From assembly GCF_017874375.1 (NCBI RefSeq), contig NZ_JAGGLK010000001.1:186001-250000 (forward strand): a DNA stretch of 64,000 bases, read 5' to 3'. Of this stretch, positions 28,209 through 36,050 are shown in pieces; positions within the stretch are counted from its first letter, which is position 1, and each line of letters begins with the position of its first letter. The position numbers and the translations under genes are program-made. The notes under the pieces are model-generated. The model saw only the letters and a list, made by a program, of their open reading frames with translations. It did not search any database and was not told the origin of the DNA. Source of the DNA: Methanohalophilus levihalophilus (GTDB taxonomy: Archaea > Halobacteriota > Methanosarcinia > Methanosarcinales > Methanosarcinaceae).

Positions 28209-28235
28209 GTTCAGACCCCTCTCTGACAAACATTT

Positions 28236-29702
28236 TCATTTTGTTTGTCTTCTGTAATAAATGATTACCAATAAAACCAGTATTGCAGCTATCAGTATAA
28301 ATGGCCCATATTCTGAAACCCAACTGTCCCCGGCTCTTAGCTGTGCTCTTTGAAGCCCTTCAATGGCAGTTTCATTTTCATCCTCAATAGAAAGTGCAAT
28401 GTTAAAAGCATCTACTGAATCCTGATATAGCTCCAACTCATAAAGGGTGTTTCCAAGCCCGTTCCATATATCTATATTGCTTTCTTCAATGGATGCCGCC
28501 TCTTCGAAGGCAAGACGCGCTTCTTCATATCTTCCAAGATCATAAAGAACCGCACCAAGGTTATACCAGGCTTTTGCAATTGTTGGATCTCCCTCTACTG
28601 CTTTACTGTAGGCAAAAGCAGCATTTTCCAGATCACCAAATTCTACGAAAATATCTCCTTTTCCTATCCATGCATTGGCATATCTGGGATTTGCCTCAGT
28701 AGCGTTATTGAATGCTTCAAGAGCGTCTTCCAGATTTCCAAGCTCGTACAGTGTATAACCAAGCCCACTCCATGCATTGGCATAGTTTGGATTGAATGTC
28801 GTGGCGTTTACGAATGAAAGATAGGCTTGCTGGTAGTTTTCCAGTTCAAAATAGGCGTATCCTTTTCCATTCCAGGCAGTTGCAATTGAAGGCTCGAGGA
28901 TGATTGCATAGTCATAATATTCAATAGCTTCAGGGTAATTTCCACGCTCATGTTCAAGGTTTCCCAGACCTACCCATGCAGCAGGGAAATCAGGATCAAG
29001 TTCCAGCGCTTTTTCAAGAGATGCCTCTGCATCGTCCAATACCCCGATTCCAATTTGTGCATACCCAAGCCCTGTTATGGATGGTACGTGTGCCGGAGCT
29101 AAATCAATTGCCAGGGAATAGGCATCGATTGCTTCATTATAAATTGCATTTATTCTAAGGATTTCTCCTGTGCGGTACCAGACCCTGAAATCATCCGATT
29201 TCAGATCGAGAAGCCCTATAAGCAGACTGCTGGCTTCATCATATCTTCCAAGCGTCTGCAATGTCAATGCTTTTGCAGCAATCGCTTCGGGGTATTCCGG
29301 CTGGAGCATCAGGGTATGCTCATACGCTTCAAGTGCAGCTTCATAATTCCCGGATAAATAGGCTGAATCACCTTTAAGTTTAAACTTCAAGGGATCATTT
29401 TGGCCATACTCGGTAGCTTTTTCAAAAGCATCAAAGGCATTTTCATATTGCCCCATTGCAAAATACGTATTTCCTTTGCCTTCCCATGCCTGTGGATTTG
29501 AAGGATTTATGGATAATGCCATATCAAATGCATAAAGGGCATCAGCATAGTTTTCTCGTTCTAATTCCGCATTTCCTGCTGCCACCCATTCGAGACTGGA
29601 TGGGGCTGCAGAAGCCTGAATTGCAAATAGGCAATATGCCAAAAAAATGAATAATATGACTTTTGAAAAGGATGGTTTTTTCCCTTTGGAGCAGTGATGC
29701 AA
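28236..29702 (-). CDS. Exported TPR protein with C-terminal membrane anchor
   Basis: 488 residues from TTG 29702, selected because GAGGGGATTAT places a good ribosome binding site just upstream; the frame remains open to a GTG at 29759. A signal segment (VILFIFLAYCLFAIQASA) precedes about eleven tandem 34-residue tetratricopeptide repeats (A-WxGxGNxxYExxxYxxAxxAFxxAxxxxP) and a C-terminal helix (FILIAAILVLLVIIYYRR) ends in positive residues. Topology: repeats outside, anchored in the membrane. TPRs are protein-binding scaffolds. The gene is in line with the PEGA lipoprotein and SPFH genes and is probably part of the same envelope complex. Confidence 0.85.
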   Translation of the reverse strand: MHHCSKGKKPSFSKVILFIFLAYCLFAIQASAAPSSLEWVAAGNAELERENYADALYAFDMALSINPSNPQAWEGKGNTYFAMGQYENAFDAFEKATEYGQNDPLKFKLKGDSAYLSGNYEAALEAYEHTLMLQPEYPEAIAAKALTLQTLGRYDEASSLLIGLLDLKSDDFRVWYRTGEILRINAIYNEAIDAYSLAIDLAPAHVPSITGLGYAQIGIGVLDDAEASLEKALELDPDFPAAWVGLGNLEHERGNYPEAIEYYDYAIILEPSIATAWNGKGYAYFELENYQQAYLSFVNATTFNPNYANAWSGLGYTLYELGNLEDALEAFNNATEANPRYANAWIGKGDIFVEFGDLENAAFAYSKAVEGDPTIAKAWYNLGAVLYDLGRYEEARLAFEEAASIEESNIDIWNGLGNTLYELELYQDSVDAFNIALSIEDENETAIEGLQRAQLRAGDSWVSEYGPFILIAAILVLLVIIYYRRQTK

Positions 29703-29776
29703 ATAATCCCCTCTCTTATTGATTATTAAGTGATACTCGTTGATCTCTGTATAAATCACTTTCTAAATTTTCCCGC

Positions 29777-31456
29777 TCAATCCAGTTGTTCTCCACATTC
29801 AGTGCAGAATTTTTGCCCATTTTTCACTTCAACCCCGCATGATGGGCAATGCTTTTTCTCATTACCTATGTTTGAGCGTTGTATGAGGCTATCCTGAATA
29901 GTTGTATTATTAATGTTATACTGGGTAAGTCCCTCGTCAACAAATAACTTGATATCAATTCTCTTTTCAATTTCTTCAAGCATCTTATGATAAAATCCAG
30001 TTAAGGAACTTTCTTTTTCAGCCCAGACTTTCAGTATGAGTCGTGATCTTCTTTTTCCTACAACTTCGATATATGCTGCATAATGCATGCCTGCAACGCC
30101 TTCTGCGAAAAACCGTCCTACGGCAGTGTAGAGCTGTGGAGTCGATGTTATCTCTGGCTCGATCATAAAGAGATTCATATCCTTCAGGACTCTTGAAACA
30201 ATGCTGAAAAGATTCTCCGCAGGGATTTCAAGATCCTTGGAGTCTTCGCCTGTAGAGATCATGTCACGCACATATTCTCTCCAGTCGTTTTCGCTAATTT
30301 CTTTGCTTTTAAGAACTGGACAGATGATATTGACAAAACGGCTGCCAACTTCTGCGTCTTTGCGTTTTTTGGTTCCGTAATCATAATACTCAATATTCCC
30401 GGAAACCTTGCATTCTCCGCATTCACCGGTAGGTCTTATCGAGAAAGTTACGGTGGAACCTTCTCCGGGTTCGAGCATGGCTATTACCTTTTCTTTTTCC
30501 TTTAAATGGAATACGTCCGGAACAAAAAGCCTTATGCGGATATCTCCTATTGGTTCAGTGGTCTGGTTTTCGACTTTGACTTTATATTCAACCATAGATC
30601 CTTTGTAGGAGAACGCTGTTTTTGCAAGAACTTTTTCATTACCTTTTTCTTCTGTAGCTGCAGGTGGTGAGGCTACCGGTGAAGATGTTACCGGCGGTGC
30701 TCTGTCTTCTTCAGGCATCTTGTTTTTCTTATTTTTCCTTCTACGCAGAACTTTTAACAAAATTGCTGCAACAATTATTACGATTATTACGCCAAGCAGC
30801 TGGGCTGCCGCTTCGTCATCGGACGCTGACCCGCCATAAGCACCATTTGAATTGGACGATGAATCGCTTGCCCGCAGATAATTTGTATAGTATGTAGGTT
30901 CTCCGGAGTAAACGTAAATTGCTTCGGAAATCGTGTCATAACCACGCTTTGAAATCTCAAGTGAATGATAACCTGGCTCGAGATAATTTAGCCATACCAT
31001 ATCATATTCTGTTCCAGTTGTGGTCTGGTAGTAACCATTCAGGTATATGTCTGCATCATCAGGTAATCCGTAGATCACAATCGAACCAGTTGAAGCACCG
31101 GTGTATACGTAGGTATTTTTAATTGTTACATAGTCTGTGGTGGCACCTGAATATACATCAACGATGTCAAAACTGACTGCAATAAAATTGTCACTATATG
31201 AAAAGACCCCGCCTTCCTCATATATGTAGTCAGAAACAACGGTATCGCCGCTAATAAGTGCAATTTCCACTTCATTGTAGTATGGATCTGCAGACACAAT
31301 ATACAGGATATAGCCTTCCGGGAGCGGCGTATAATATTCTTCTGCAAGGGTTATTTCATCGGAGGATACAGTGACAGCACCTCCGGTCATTGAACATGCT
31401 GTCAGGACAATTGCCATGCTCAGGCAAAGTAAAACAATTTTTTTTGTATCCAACAC
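29777..31456 (-). CDS. PEGA-domain lipoprotein with C-terminal zinc ribbon
   Basis: About 559 residues from GTG 31456 (or TTG 31453), preceded by AGGTG. A lipobox-like VLTAC follows the first hydrophobic segment. An external PEGA domain (IYGLPDDADIYLNGYYQTTTGTEY, LEPGYHSLEISKRGYDTI) follows, then a membrane helix (LLGVIIVIIVAAILLKVL) with a basic stop signal. The cytoplasmic part has a CARDB/DUF11-like beta domain (VKVENQTTEPIGDIRIRLFVPD, VTFSIRPTG), a globular middle and a zinc ribbon CPSC...CTEC at the very end. The same type of ribbon ends the neighbouring SPFH protein. It looks like a sensor spanning the membrane. Function unknown. Confidence 0.82.
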   Translation of the reverse strand: MLDTKKIVLLCLSMAIVLTACSMTGGAVTVSSDEITLAEEYYTPLPEGYILYIVSADPYYNEVEIALISGDTVVSDYIYEEGGVFSYSDNFIAVSFDIVDVYSGATTDYVTIKNTYVYTGASTGSIVIYGLPDDADIYLNGYYQTTTGTEYDMVWLNYLEPGYHSLEISKRGYDTISEAIYVYSGEPTYYTNYLRASDSSSNSNGAYGGSASDDEAAAQLLGVIIVIIVAAILLKVLRRRKNKKNKMPEEDRAPPVTSSPVASPPAATEEKGNEKVLAKTAFSYKGSMVEYKVKVENQTTEPIGDIRIRLFVPDVFHLKEKEKVIAMLEPGEGSTVTFSIRPTGECGECKVSGNIEYYDYGTKKRKDAEVGSRFVNIICPVLKSKEISENDWREYVRDMISTGEDSKDLEIPAENLFSIVSRVLKDMNLFMIEPEITSTPQLYTAVGRFFAEGVAGMHYAAYIEVVGKRRSRLILKVWAEKESSLTGFYHKMLEEIEKRIDIKLFVDEGLTQYNINNTTIQDSLIQRSNIGNEKKHCPSCGVEVKNGQKFCTECGEQLD

Positions 31457-31475
31457 AGACACCTGGTTTGTGATT

Positions 31476-32765
31476 TTATCTGTCGAGCTTCGTACCACAT
31501 TGTCCGCAGAAACTGGCTTCTGCAGGTACTGTAGTGCCGCAACCGGGACATTTCTTAACAGTTGAAGAGCGCCTTTCACGGGCAGCTGCCATCATGTCAG
31601 CATCCAGCTCTTTGCGCCTGTACGAATCTTCACGTTCCCTATCTTCGACATCCATCATAAACCCTACGCGATCTTCTTCTGCCCTGCGTTTTGCTTCGTC
31701 CATTTTTGCCAGTGCTTCAAGCTGCTCAGGTGTCATGGAAGATAGCTCCCTTCCCTGTGCGACAATCTTGGCAACGTCTTCTCCACCACTGGATGTAATA
31801 TTATTCAGGTATTCCATATCACGGCCGTGCTGCCTGTCTTTTATGTCTTCTTCCAGCTCGAGTTCATCCCTTCTTGCTCCGGTCTTTGCTTCCTTCCAGT
31901 CTTTGTAAATCCCAATGCCAGAACGTGCTTCAGCAGCGTCACTTTCAATTTCAATTTGATCAAGACGCTTTTTATGAAGAGCTTCCTTTTCCTCCTCCGC
32001 TCTTTCATGTCCTCTCAATGCAGCTCCTGCAGCAACATCTTTTCGAACTTCAGCTACCTGCTCACGGCCTTCTCTTTCAAACCTGCCTTCCTTGCGGAGG
32101 GCTTCAATTTCTTCAAGTTCCTCTGAGGTCTGGAATTGGCTTCGGGTTCTTCTTACTTTCTCATATTCAGCAAAATCCCACTCTGCGGTATGCCTTTCAA
32201 TCTCAAGTCCCCAGTTTCGCAAAGTGTCTTTCAGCTGCATTTCGAGCTCGTTTTCGATTGCAACCTGAAGATCCCGATTCCCATAAATTTCCTCAATTTC
32301 TATCTTGTGAACCTCAGGCTCAAGAACCCGGGTTAAAACCTCGCTCTGGAGGTGGCTATAAACATCATCGATGGAAAGGTATCTTTCTCCATGTTTGTCC
32401 ATTGTGCTGTAGGAAAACAACATCTGGAAGAACCTTTCAACATCCGAAATCCTGAACTTCAGGATTCCTTTACATCCGATTTGCTGACTGTCTCTGGTCC
32501 ATAGTTCTGCTTGTTCCCAGTCCAGTTCTTTCTCGGAGGTATCAATAAGCGCAACATCTACGTCTTTGCGAATGTTGCCGGGTTTCAACAAGCCTCCTAC
32601 CCGAATCTTTCCACTGTCTATAACATCTTCAACATTCCCGTTCCTGATCATGACAGCATTTTCATTCGGGGACAGAACTACGGATTTACTGAAAAATCCA
32701 TTTACTCTGCCCTTTGGAACAACCCTGGCGATATCATCTAATTCCCTTTTCCATTTGAAGGCCAT
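31476..32765 (-). CDS. SPFH/band-7-like protein with coiled coil and zinc ribbon
   Basis: 429 residues from ATG 32765, chosen for its ACAGGTGTTGAT ribosome site; the open frame runs 54 codons further back into the divergent promoter. Residues about 30-200 resemble the SPFH (stomatin/flotillin) domain of the B. subtilis YdjI / 'virion core protein' type (VVLSPNENAVMIRNG, GILKFRISDVERFFQM, LNxWGLEIE-like strand). Residues 200-380 are a long charged coiled coil, and the C-terminus is a zinc ribbon CPGC...CGQC. YdjI is known to recruit the ESCRT-III relative PspA to membranes. Here the gene diverges from a Snf7-like/Vps4-like operon, so a similar recruiting role is inferred. Confidence 0.82.
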   Translation of the reverse strand: MAFKWKRELDDIARVVPKGRVNGFFSKSVVLSPNENAVMIRNGNVEDVIDSGKIRVGGLLKPGNIRKDVDVALIDTSEKELDWEQAELWTRDSQQIGCKGILKFRISDVERFFQMLFSYSTMDKHGERYLSIDDVYSHLQSEVLTRVLEPEVHKIEIEEIYGNRDLQVAIENELEMQLKDTLRNWGLEIERHTAEWDFAEYEKVRRTRSQFQTSEELEEIEALRKEGRFEREGREQVAEVRKDVAAGAALRGHERAEEEKEALHKKRLDQIEIESDAAEARSGIGIYKDWKEAKTGARRDELELEEDIKDRQHGRDMEYLNNITSSGGEDVAKIVAQGRELSSMTPEQLEALAKMDEAKRRAEEDRVGFMMDVEDREREDSYRRKELDADMMAAARERRSSTVKKCPGCGTTVPAEASFCGQCGTKLDR

Positions 32766-32827
32766 GTTATCAACACCTGTAAGTCTGCGAGTTGATCTTT
32801 GGTAACTCTTATATATATTGTTTTCCA

Positions 32828-32847
32828 TTGTATACATAGAGATACAA
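32828..32847. promoter_or_regulatory. Palindrome in the divergent SPFH / ESCRT-like promoter
   Basis: TTGTAT (32828-32833) and ATACAA (32842-32847) form a perfect inverted repeat in the 111-nt region between the divergent genes, next to a TATA-rich block (about 32808-32820, CTTATATATATTG). Position fits an operator controlling both directions. The adjacent ribbon-helix-helix peptide is an obvious candidate ligand. Confidence 0.4.
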
Positions 32848-32876
32848 CTCATGGCATCTCGCCGGAGGAAAAATAT

Positions 32877-33032
32877 ATGAAACGTTCGTATCCTGTTAGT
32901 GCAAGAGTTTCTGAAGATATGAAACAATATCTGGATAGTCTTGTCAATAAGGGGATAGCAATCAATACTTCTGAAGCATTGAAACTTTGTGTACGCTATG
33001 CCAAACAGAAGAAAATGGAGGAGGAACTGTAA
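32877..33032 (+). CDS. Small ribbon-helix-helix DNA-binding-like protein
   Basis: 51 residues from ATG 32877, which follows a perfect GGAGGAAAA ribosome site; upstream in-frame codons belong to the promoter. YPVSARVSEDMKQYLDSLV...GIAINTSEALKLCVRYAKQ follows the MetJ/Arc ribbon-helix-helix plan: a basic beta strand, helix A, then a turn and helix B with a conserved serine cap. Such proteins bind palindromes as dimers and commonly autoregulate. The stop overlaps the next gene by one base (TAATG). Confidence 0.78.
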   Translation: MKRSYPVSARVSEDMKQYLDSLVNKGIAINTSEALKLCVRYAKQKKMEEEL

Positions 33033-33607
33033 TGGGGCTCACAAATCCTTTCAAGAAAGTCTCACCTGAGGAACTTAAAACCAAGCTCGCTATATCTGAA
33101 CAGAGATTAACTTCCAGGGAAAAAGAACTGATGAAGAAACGCCAGGGTGCACGTGATTCTGCCAAGGATGCTCTTGCAAATGGCAATGATCGTGAGTTCC
33201 GTGTGGCTTCCCGCCGTTATTCCATGGTAGACGGTCAGGTTAACACAATCGGTAGCATGGTAGAGATGGCACAGTCCATGAGTGACGTTATTGAGATGCA
33301 GACCGGTCTTAAGGAAGTTGTTGAGATTGGTGAGAATCTTGGACAATGGCAAAAGCAGCTTGGTTTTGATACTGCCAAGATGGAATCCGCAATTACAACT
33401 ATCCGGACATCTATGGAAAAAGTGAACACAGCTACCAGCATGATGACTTCTTCAATGGATGCAGCGATGGGAGGAGACACCGAGCTTTCCGAGATGCAGG
33501 ATTCCCTTCGTTCAGAATTACTGGCAGAACTGTCCACGGATACCGGTTCTAAGGATTCCCTGACAAAACGTATTGAATCCGAGATGACAGACGAGGACAC
33601 TGTCTGA
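33032..33607 (+). CDS. Snf7/ESCRT-III-like helical protein
   Basis: 191 residues from ATG 33032 with GGAGGAGG upstream. It is nearly all helical: a basic amphipathic start (NPFKKVSPEELKTKL), a long hairpin (about 15-75) with LANGNDREFRVASRRY at the turn, then methionine-rich helices (SMVEMAQSMSDVIEM, VVEIGENLGQW, MEKVNTATSMMTSSMDAAMG) and an acidic tail. This order is how ESCRT-III subunits (Snf7/Vps2/CdvB) are built, including a flexible tail. Around 177-185 LTKRIESEM resembles the LxxRLxxL core of a MIT-interacting motif. A MIT-AAA gene lies 28 nt downstream. I infer a membrane-remodelling polymer; a PspA-like role is the main alternative. Confidence 0.68.
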   Translation: MGLTNPFKKVSPEELKTKLAISEQRLTSREKELMKKRQGARDSAKDALANGNDREFRVASRRYSMVDGQVNTIGSMVEMAQSMSDVIEMQTGLKEVVEIGENLGQWQKQLGFDTAKMESAITTIRTSMEKVNTATSMMTSSMDAAMGGDTELSEMQDSLRSELLAELSTDTGSKDSLTKRIESEMTDEDTV

Positions 33608-33635
33608 TTCCTGACCTCTTTGTTTTGAGGAAGGT

Positions 33636-34796
33636 GTGCAGGTGGGAGAGTCTGCCGTCCAGATGGCTGCAAAAGCCAGAGGTTATGCAAAAGCTGCCCG
33701 TGAGGTAGAAAAGTCGGGTAATTCGGATCGTGCCCGTGAGCTCTATCTTGAGGCAGCCAAGCTTTACAATTCCGCATCGCAAAAATCTTCAGACGTTGCG
33801 GAAAGAAATACCCAGCGAGATCTTGCAGAGCACTTGCTTGCAAAAGCACAATCTTTTAAACGCTCTGCTCAACCGGCAACTGGTGGCACTTCTGAGGACA
33901 GCGATGAAGGAACAGTTGCAAAAAGTGACTTGTTTCTCAAACAGAAGCCTTCAATTGGTTTTACTGATATAGGCGGCCTTGAGAACGTGAAGGAATCCAT
34001 TCGCAAGGCAATCATTTATCCCTTTACTCATCCTGAGCTCTACAAGATGTATGGTCAGAGGGCAGGTGAAGGTATCCTTTTGTATGGTCCACCGGGTTGT
34101 GGTAAGACCATGATGGCCAAAGCGGCGGCAAAAGAATGTGGTGCCGACTTCCTGAGTGTGAAAACCAGTAGTATTGTCAGCAAATGGGTGGGTTCTTCTG
34201 AGAAAAACATCAGACAGGTTTTTGATGCTGCAAGGGATTGCGATAAAGCAATCGTATTTCTGGATGAAATCGATGCAATTGCTCCCCGCAGGAGCGAAAG
34301 CGAAGATTATGCAAAACGTATGGTGAACGAGATGTTAGTCCAGCTTGATGGTGTGGACACCTCTGAAGATAGTTTCCTTGTATTGGCGGCAACAAATGAA
34401 CCATGGGGAATCGATCCGGCACTTCGACGTCCGGGACGTTTCAGCAAACTTGTGTTCATCCCTGAGCCGGATCTTGATGCAAGATATGCCATTTTCAAAT
34501 TGAACCTGAAGAATCGGCCGGTTGAAGATGATGTAGATGTTATGGAATTGGCAAAGCTAACCGAATCGTTCTCCGGAGCTGATATTGCTGCTATCTGTGG
34601 AGAAGCTGCTGACATTCCGCTCGGAGAAGCTCTTCAGGGTGGAGATACGCGTAAAATTCACATGTCTGATTTCAGGAAAGTGCTTGAAGGGCGGACTCCT
34701 TCTATCCTGAGCTGGTATGCAGAAGCCCGGGCGCAGATCAAGAAGCACGGTGAAGAAACAACATTTCCTGAATTATTCAGGCAAGCTCAGGGGTGA
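33636..34796 (+). CDS. MIT-domain AAA+ ATPase, Vps4/CdvC-like
   Basis: 386 residues from GTG 33636 (GTG 33642 also possible), after TTGAGGAAGG. Residues about 7-77 form a three-helix MIT-like domain (AAKARGYAKAAREVEKSGNSDRARELYLEAAKLY pattern). A single AAA module follows: FTDIGGLENVKESIRKAI entry, Walker A GPPGCGKT (151-158), pore-loop SSIVSKWVGSSEKN, Walker B AIVFLDEIDA (about 205-214), sensor AATN, and arginine fingers in RRPGRF (264-269). The C-terminal helix SWYAEARAQIKKHG matches the Vps4-type closing region. Vps4 disassembles ESCRT-III polymers recognised through MIT; the adjacent Snf7-like gene is the natural substrate. Confidence 0.85.
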   Translation: MQVGESAVQMAAKARGYAKAAREVEKSGNSDRARELYLEAAKLYNSASQKSSDVAERNTQRDLAEHLLAKAQSFKRSAQPATGGTSEDSDEGTVAKSDLFLKQKPSIGFTDIGGLENVKESIRKAIIYPFTHPELYKMYGQRAGEGILLYGPPGCGKTMMAKAAAKECGADFLSVKTSSIVSKWVGSSEKNIRQVFDAARDCDKAIVFLDEIDAIAPRRSESEDYAKRMVNEMLVQLDGVDTSEDSFLVLAATNEPWGIDPALRRPGRFSKLVFIPEPDLDARYAIFKLNLKNRPVEDDVDVMELAKLTESFSGADIAAICGEAADIPLGEALQGGDTRKIHMSDFRKVLEGRTPSILSWYAEARAQIKKHGEETTFPELFRQAQG

Positions 34797-34801
34797 TTAT
34801 T

Positions 34802-36031
34802 ATGGATGATTTAGAATTACCTGAAAAATCTCCAGATAGGACTCAGACTGAAAACAACCAGAGGATAAAAGAAGTTCTGGGAGAAAACCGTCAGGCCTTT
34901 GAAATGCTGATTGAAAAATCTCATCGTGATGGAAATGTACAGGCTACTGCTGATATCCGGGCTTTAAGAAACAGGATTGTGGATTTGCTAAAACGCATAG
35001 ATGGGAAAACTACTGCTTTTTCAGGTAAAACTGCTTCCAGTCTGGATGAGTTTTATGATGCTGAACAACAACTGATTGCTAAATCCGATTCTTTTTCAGA
35101 AATGATCTCCCAAATGCTTGATGGTGAGATGAACATTGAGGCCTTTAAACTAACCATGTCTCTGGAGAGTATTGAAAGGGCAATCAAAGCCCGCATACCT
35201 GTTGATCCGGTTCTTATGGGCAAATACTCAGCTAACAGGCAAAGGATTGCAGCGGAGAAAGCTGCATCATCAGAGCCTGAAGTTATTGAAGAGTCACTGG
35301 CAATCAAAGACGAACCTGAACAACCAGAAGAATATTCAGTTCAGCAACCTGTACGAGAAACAGTTGAAGAGAAACTTGACACTGAAACTTTATCTGTCCT
35401 TTACAATTATCTCAACATCCTTGAGCGGAAATATGGTGATTTTGTGCCGGAAGTGTCTCCTTCAGGTGACTATCTTTCTTCTCCAAAGTGGAAATATAGC
35501 ACCGATCAAAGAAGTGCTCATGCAGAACTCAAAGGAGGTATTTTTGGTAGTCTTTTGGTACTGGATGCCCGGTGGAATCCAGAAACTGATCTTCGGAAGC
35601 TGGTTGAAAAGGTACAGGGGATTGCAAGGGCTGCAGGAAACAATGAATATCGAGGCATATGTTTTATCGCGAATTCATGGGATGACGATATTTCAGAATG
35701 GGCAGAAAGCTATACTCATCCAAGATTATCGCTGTTCCTCTATTCCTTAGGTTCTGATGGAGTAATTTACAATTCTGAAAACACTTATTCAAGGTATCTC
35801 CAGTTCTGGTATTCTCCACTGGCTTCTGGGAAGGTACGGCTCAAAGATTTGGTTCTGGATCTGTTGCAGGAAAGAGTTAATATTGATGCTTCTGATCTTG
35901 CATCTGAAACAGGGCTTAACAAAAAAGGAGCTCAAAAGCTGCTGGATAAACTTGAAAAGAAAGAAATGCTGGTGGACATAGGATTCGGTTCGTCCAAATA
36001 TGCCCTGTCCAACACTTTTAAAGACAATTAA
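34802..36031 (+). CDS. Unknown protein of the ESCRT-like operon (helical, alpha/beta, winged helix)
   Basis: 409 residues from ATG 34802, chosen because GGGGTGAT lies just upstream; it starts 5 nt after the ATPase stop. Three parts are visible. Residues 1-150 are helical and may be coiled (LRNRIVDLLKRIDGKT, SFSEMISQML). An acidic linker follows (about 155-195). Residues 196-340 form an alpha/beta domain (AELKGGIFGSLLVLDARWNP, YRGICFIANSWDDDISEWAE, PRLSLFLYSLG) with a layout reminiscent of restriction-endonuclease-like folds but no convincing catalytic triad. Residues 345-405 are a winged helix (VRLKDLVLDLL, ASDLASETGLNKKGAQKLLDKLEKKEML). I recognise no family. ESCRT-II subunits and CdvA-type adaptors also use winged helices, hence a possible adaptor. 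Confidence 0.75.
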   Translation: MDDLELPEKSPDRTQTENNQRIKEVLGENRQAFEMLIEKSHRDGNVQATADIRALRNRIVDLLKRIDGKTTAFSGKTASSLDEFYDAEQQLIAKSDSFSEMISQMLDGEMNIEAFKLTMSLESIERAIKARIPVDPVLMGKYSANRQRIAAEKAASSEPEVIEESLAIKDEPEQPEEYSVQQPVRETVEEKLDTETLSVLYNYLNILERKYGDFVPEVSPSGDYLSSPKWKYSTDQRSAHAELKGGIFGSLLVLDARWNPETDLRKLVEKVQGIARAAGNNEYRGICFIANSWDDDISEWAESYTHPRLSLFLYSLGSDGVIYNSENTYSRYLQFWYSPLASGKVRLKDLVLDLLQERVNIDASDLASETGLNKKGAQKLLDKLEKKEMLVDIGFGSSKYALSNTFKDN

Positions 36032-36050
36032 ATAAGATGTGCTGAGGAGT

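Follow-up and report, generated by a model that had tools for sequence, protein, structure and literature searches.

A candidate adaptor with a likely restriction-endonuclease-like domain and a winged helix in an ESCRT-type cassette of Methanosarcinales

Two kinds of archaeal ESCRT locus come closest to the one analysed here. In Main-type systems, as described by Makarova et al. (2024; PMC10936438), proteins of arCOG09748 begin with a helical region, followed by a coiled coil, then a globular domain and last an ESCRT-II-like winged helix, and are encoded beside a Cas2-like protein (arCOG08177); the central globular domain is published there as having no known similarity. The Meth_adaptin loci of Methanobacteriales, in the same account, encode Vps4 and ESCRT-III together with SPFH-zinc-ribbon and adaptin-appendage-like proteins. 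Methanosarcinales go unnamed in the main text of that paper, and the gene studied here may nonetheless have been listed before. A further point of reference is the N-terminal domain of RPB5, a dead restriction-endonuclease (REase) fold in which protein-protein interaction is suspected (PMC1185551).

The window, by which we mean the whole 64,000-nucleotide stretch analysed, comes from the 2.1 Mb, 98.8% complete genome of a methanogen, and contains a cassette (Table 1) in which the SPFH, PEGA and TPR genes diverge from an operon encoding a ribbon-helix-helix (RHH) protein, an ESCRT-III-like protein, a Vps4-like ATPase and, last, a protein of 409 residues. An MIT-containing Vps4 ATPase thus adjoins an ESCRT-III-family protein, the combination by which we call the locus ESCRT-type, with the Snf7 match of the window's ESCRT-III-like protein (0.042) lying under Pfam's cut-off. 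Across the families the MIT domain is matched in 11 of 13 ATPases (best 3.9e-6) and Snf7 in 10 of 12 ESCRT-III-like proteins (best 2.7e-4), the latter being 65-82% identical between loci. The RHH gene, whose stop overlaps the ESCRT-III start (TAATG), stands upstream of ESCRT-III in every locus examined (more than 30) and its product is likely the operon regulator; this 51-aa protein is conserved almost as strongly as ESCRT-III. On the divergent side, the SPFH/zinc-ribbon gene, whose start was set at an internal ATG by comparison with relatives, is found in all complete loci, and a TPR homologue lies at the same place in L025 (35% identity over 471 aa). The PEGA protein runs from an N-terminal hydrophobic, lipobox-like segment through the PEGA domain, a TM helix (read directly from the sequence) and an Ig-like region to a zinc ribbon; it looks like a receptor and is, by analogy, adaptin-appendage-like. 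No ubiquitin gene was seen in the cassette.

Table 1. Features of the cassette, with positions counted from the first letter of the window
Feature	Positions	Strand	Basis
TPR protein, outer cassette end	28236..29759	-	Pfam TPR
Membrane protein: PEGA, TM, Ig-like, C-terminal zinc ribbon	29777..31579	-	PEGA 1.8e-6, Zn_Ribbon_1 8e-6, NPCBM_assoc 0.004
SPFH/Band-7 protein, C-terminal zinc ribbon	31479..32765	-	Band_7 1.9e-11, zinc ribbon 4.5e-6
Ribbon-helix-helix protein, 51 aa	32877..33032	+	RHH_1 in 10/12 members, best 4.4e-5
ESCRT-III (Snf7)-like helical protein, 191 aa	33032..33607	+	Snf7 family matches
Vps4/CdvC-like ATPase: MIT domain, AAA, lid	33636..34796	+	AAA 3e-43, AAA_lid_3 3e-11, CdvC model 8e-70
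Adaptor candidate, 409 aa	34802..36031	+	helical N-terminus, acidic linker, REase-like α/β, winged helix
Cassette extent	28230..36050	.	compared with empty site in G006, G003

The 409-residue frame called in the earlier note was found as described, opening at an ATG (34802) 5 nt past the ATPase stop; translation could alternatively begin at a GTG at 34793, which overlaps that stop. Comparison of the sequences confirms the gene as real and conserved, with coding potential exceeding chance, because orthologues in many genomes align over the full length at 25-35% identity and the dN/dS of close pairs is 0.17-0.22, a range that gives no sign of positive selection. Median identity to orthologues in 16 loci is 29%, against 69% for Vps4, 79% for ESCRT-III and 57% for SPFH, and close-pair dN/dS is 0.00-0.05 for ESCRT-III and 0.03-0.11 for Vps4, so the protein evolves several times faster than either of these two, yet under purifying selection. 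In one member of the Methanosarcinaceae, SMBSF72 (L028/L080), the orthologue is broken into two overlapping frames of 282 and 165 aa (L080:11831-13047), by either a frameshift or an assembly error. Sequence searches of Pfam, NCBIfam, PADLOC and the PDB assign the protein to no family: Pfam gives weak winged-helix matches at residues 351-400 only, the best of them MarR/TrmB-type and every one below cut-off, and PADLOC likewise gives weak winged-helix matches only.

Loci were collected by a profile search of genome contigs with the ESCRT-III alignment, which gave 22; a single-protein search of the same contigs with the 409-aa protein found nothing, and viral contigs and phage records held no matches. 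The gene is present in 13 of 60 relatives, an ESCRT-III-like gene in the same 13, and all 13 assessable genomes with the ESCRT-III-like gene (Methanosarcinaceae and Methanoperedens/ANME-type) therefore carry both; a fourteenth ESCRT-III match, in G048, sits on a 3.1-kb contig too short to show the 409-aa gene. Profile matches, short and paralogous ones counted in, occur in 48 of 238 genomes of the class. Named related records belong to Methanolobus, Methanococcoides, other Methanosarcinaceae and Methanoperedens. Gene order in the cassette is conserved, and the libraries and the loci together bear out the description of an unrecognised subunit of an ESCRT-like operon. True orthologues were found in ESCRT-like operons throughout; Methanoperedens and a further archaeon have a more distant paralogue whose gene neighbours SPFH, with no Vps4 next to it and no recognised ESCRT-III.

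In Methanococcoides and Methanolobus the cassette occupies the same position as in the window, beside rpS6e-IF2-ndk, and because of this its absence elsewhere is a loss: the cassette is ancestral at the rpS6e site, vertically inherited and since lost in relatives. The window's genus includes two further species (G006 and G003; L193 and L194) in which DUF4389 directly abuts rpS6e, G006 having no copy of the cassette and G003 a divergent copy elsewhere (C1:375 kb). A mobile insertion was considered and rejected for the rpS6e-IF2-ndk site on the same grounds of shared position. Since the genome also encodes three FtsZ-type, tubulin-family proteins and one SepF, and the cassette is missing from relatives, a division-essential role is unlikely, in agreement with the argument made in PMC10936438.

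AlphaFold, run on the full 409-aa protein with 18 homologues, gives a model of mean pLDDT 81.6 and pTM 0.53, a value at which the relative placement of domains would not be fixed by the model. Every part that the earlier note had read from the sequence reappears in it: N-terminal helices (residues 11-155), a disordered acidic linker (157-189; net charge -10 over 156-190), an α/β domain (194-337) and a C-terminal winged helix (347-402). As parts of the protein the last three are here delimited at 156-190, 191-344 and 345-404. The N-terminal helical domain gave no match to anything; its identification with a stand-alone 184-aa helical protein of Methanoperedens or with the ESCRT-III protein was rejected, the sequences not matching. 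Modelled alone, residues 191-344 reach pLDDT 91.1 and pTM 0.87, with a secondary-structure order of H E E E H E H E E H, i.e. the α-β-β-β-α-β core of restriction-endonuclease-like folds plus an extension; the two strands singled out previously, LLVLDARW and GICFIANSW, fall at residues 251-258 and 285-293. Foldseek of this domain against the PDB returned no match at E <= 1e-3, REase-like proteins included. Its top 50 repeatedly contain RPB5 chains, with MspJI, PaqCI, EndoMS, Can2 and Cap4, and also unrelated entries such as acetyl-CoA carboxylase, while against viral models RPB5 homologues take ranks 2, 3 and 28 beside several PD-(D/E)xK proteins, making the RPB5 N-terminal domain the most recurrent fold match. 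Because of the predicted topology and these weak matches the α/β domain likely has a restriction-endonuclease-like fold, as had been proposed, the topology agreeing with that proposal and Foldseek lending it weak similarity. In the full-length search the winged-helix matches include human ESCRT-II (3cuq_A: E 0.059, probability 1.00, 63 columns), ranked below generic DNA-binding winged helices, and rank 1 is Csa3 (E 5e-3, TMq 0.15, rmsd 12.7).

The catalytic D and (D/E)xK of PD-(D/E)xK nucleases are missing from the family in the 18 sequences aligned. Position 255 is E in 14, D in 3 and K in 1; at 257 R, C, Y and F occur but no K; and the strand before that of residue 255 (strand 2) has no conserved acid. 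Because D255 is not invariant and R257 is so variable, DxR cannot be regarded as a conserved site in this alignment. Of the three residues whose conservation had been proposed as a check, W258 is nearly invariant and the other two vary, the aspartate having been numbered D256 (its position is 255; R257 and W258 were numbered correctly). The catalytic residues, called unconvincing before, are absent across the set. The conserved positions are W230, W258, Q272, A275, C287, W293, H306 and W336. The winged helix, taken as a whole domain, has a net charge <= 0 in 16 of 17 members, and the α/β domain has a pI of 5.2. To judge from sequence, the missing catalytic residues and the neutral or acidic charge speak for binding of proteins by both domains and against a nuclease or DNA-binding function; of the two functions once suggested for the winged helix, protein or DNA binding, the former appears the likelier.

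Distant homologues place the C-terminal half of the protein in a wider context. The paralogue, which has both α/β domain and winged helix, aligns with the family at an hhalign probability of 97% (E 6.5e-11). Its gene lies beside SPFH-zinc-ribbon genes in L140:5375-8997 and L141:6170-9566 (Methanoperedens) and in L139:2109-5695; these loci form a second, paralogous SPFH system, in which no Vps4 is adjacent and no ESCRT-III was recognised. In Methanoperedens it also has the 184-aa helical protein; L139 also encodes two small MIT-domain proteins. Three loci of Main architecture (L166, L167 and L182), assigned to arCOG09748 by architecture and neighbours, occur in one family of the phylum, each with a neighbour that looks Cas2-like. 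That in G397 (L132/L182) encodes PEGA-repeat membrane S/T kinases, a phosphatase, two ESCRT-III-like proteins, a Vps4-like ATPase and the Cas2-like-looking protein. Searching the phylum for Main-type systems with PF03357 brought up mainly unrelated coiled coils, and haloarchaeal plasmid ATPases show, by annotation, no ESCRT-like neighbourhood. Against the arCOG09748-type proteins hhalign gives 82% (E 1.1e-5) for the family and 91% (E 1e-6) for the paralogue, from shallow profiles whose E-values have no local calibration, and covers only the second half of the α/β domain. Among 2069 ORFs, L166 (E 4e-5) and L167 (1e-4) hold the only ones outside family and paralogue to match mainly in the α/β domain, with E-values biased by both having first been found with the same profile; the L182 protein was missed by the family HMM in this set. 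Both weak genome matches belong to ESCRT operons and concern a domain at the same place in proteins of like architecture, which supports distant homology between the C-terminal half and the arCOG09748-type proteins, and qualifies the word 'unrecognised'.

Like arCOG09748 proteins, the 409-aa protein has a helical N-terminus, a central globular domain and a C-terminal winged helix, and its gene neighbours ESCRT-III and Vps4. In place of their long coiled coil it has an acidic disordered linker, sequence identity is very low, and the ORF inventory of the window cassette holds neither a Cas2-like arCOG08177 neighbour nor an S/T kinase, the partners here being SPFH and PEGA/Ig-zinc-ribbon proteins. 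With Meth_adaptin loci the cassette shares Vps4 and ESCRT-III, SPFH/coiled-coil/zinc-ribbon and membrane Ig-type/zinc-ribbon proteins, but the α/β-winged-helix protein, of which the description of those loci in PMC10936438 makes no mention, is always present here. Because of the profile link to arCOG09748-type proteins, the window cassette would thus join a Main-type module to adaptin/SPFH-type partners. As in ESCRT-II (Vps22/Vps25/Vps36), the winged helix may by analogy be a protein-binding module between a receptor side and ESCRT-III. The ESCRT-II subunits, however, have two tandem winged helices where the model has one, the 409-aa protein adds α/β and N-helical domains, and the cassette shows no ubiquitin gene. 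The α/β domain resembles the RPB5 N-terminal domain and the PD-(D/E)xK fold in its core and its repeated weak matches, and RPB5 also in lacking catalytic residues, but no sequence similarity was found, TM-scores are low (TMq about 0.33-0.46 for RPB5) and the protein is not in RNA polymerase. Since the defining features tested are missing, the protein is not filed under arCOG09748, ESCRT-II or the PD-(D/E)xK nucleases; it plausibly works like arCOG09748 proteins and ESCRT-II.

We consider it rather probable that the 409-aa protein is the adaptor of an ESCRT-type module for membrane remodelling, dispensable to Methanosarcinales and not serving division. The winged helix and the catalytically dead REase/RPB5-like domain would be protein-binding surfaces that link the ESCRT-III polymer and the Vps4 ATPase to the receptor/scaffold half of the cassette, formed by the SPFH-zinc-ribbon and PEGA-TM-Ig-zinc-ribbon proteins. 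The protein would recruit or nucleate ESCRT-III where the receptor marks the membrane, in the manner of eukaryotic ESCRT-II; Vps4 would afterwards take the polymer apart, with vesicle budding or membrane repair as the outcome, and the RHH protein would probably control the operon. This reading is favoured by the co-occurrence in 13 of 13 genomes, the paralogue beside SPFH-zinc-ribbon genes, the distant homologue beside ESCRT-III in Main-type loci, 3cuq_A among the winged-helix matches, the recurrent RPB5 match, the missing catalytic positions and the non-basic winged helix. Against it stand the pTM of 0.53, the lack of a REase match at E <= 1e-3, the generic DNA-binding winged helices that rank above ESCRT-II, the single winged helix, the N-terminal helical domain for which nothing matched, and the shallow arCOG09748 profiles, with L166 and L167 first found through the family's own profile and L182 missed by it.

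Gene order bears on this. The ATPase and 409-aa genes adjoin (a 5-nt gap) in the window and many relatives, as the tight coupling to the MIT-AAA ATPase noted earlier would have it; in other loci one to three or more genes intervene, some loci encoding there large zinc-ribbon proteins along with a HEAT/adaptin-N-like zinc-ribbon protein, and in ANME-type loci the orthologue lies on the SPFH/PEGA side, apart from Vps4. A HEAT-repeat/Adaptin_N-like protein with a C-terminal zinc ribbon is encoded near the orthologue at L026:8054-8923, and also in L092, L027 and L030. The adjacency and the all-helical N-terminal half could also be explained if the protein were mainly a Vps4 cofactor (Vta1- or LIP5-like), its N-terminal helices binding the ATPase or MIT domain to tune disassembly and its α/β-winged-helix part positioning it. 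We judge this unlikely, given the ANME-type placement, the paralogue with no Vps4 beside it and an N-terminus that matches neither the ESCRT-III-like nor the 184-aa helical protein in sequence. The observed placement of the gene, beside Vps4 in most loci and on the SPFH/PEGA side in the ANME-type, is what the adaptor reading, a bridge between the two halves of the cassette, would lead one to expect.

The winged helix, with its sub-threshold MarR/TrmB-type matches in Pfam and the many DNA-binding winged helices in its Foldseek list, might instead bind DNA at the cassette's divergent promoter and make the protein a transcription regulator, which is very unlikely: the domain is neutral or acidic in all but one of 17 members and the α/β domain acidic, that promoter already has beside it the gene of a conserved RHH protein, and the 409-aa gene, which evolves fast, stands at the end of the operon. 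Slightly less probable still is that the protein serves an immune system which uses membrane remodelling, either as its nuclease effector or as a nucleotide sensor (a REase, dead or variant, or a CARF with winged helix like Csa3), a reading to which the weak similarities to Csa3 and to MspJI, PaqCI, EndoMS, Can2 and Cap4, the patchy distribution and the fast evolution would point, but which is opposed by the missing ExK/D, the poor coverage of the Csa3 match, a strand order that is not Rossmann-like, PADLOC matches confined to weak winged helices, and the syntenic, vertically inherited cassette under purifying dN/dS.

Tentatively, euryarchaeal ESCRT systems may have an ancestral adaptor in common, a dead RPB5-like nuclease fold joined to a winged helix, kept in Main-type, Methanoperedens-like SPFH-linked and Methanosarcinales loci, a receptor-coupling counterpart of ESCRT-II outside Asgard archaea. 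The comparison suggests a possible fold for the central domain of the archaeal ESCRT component published as lacking known similarity, and one shared module would tie together Main-type and adaptin/SPFH-type ESCRT, described separately. A compact ESCRT-SPFH cassette is now defined in methanogens and, because sister species naturally lack it and no more than about seven proteins are encoded, the role of ESCRT in archaea that divide by FtsZ would become directly testable.
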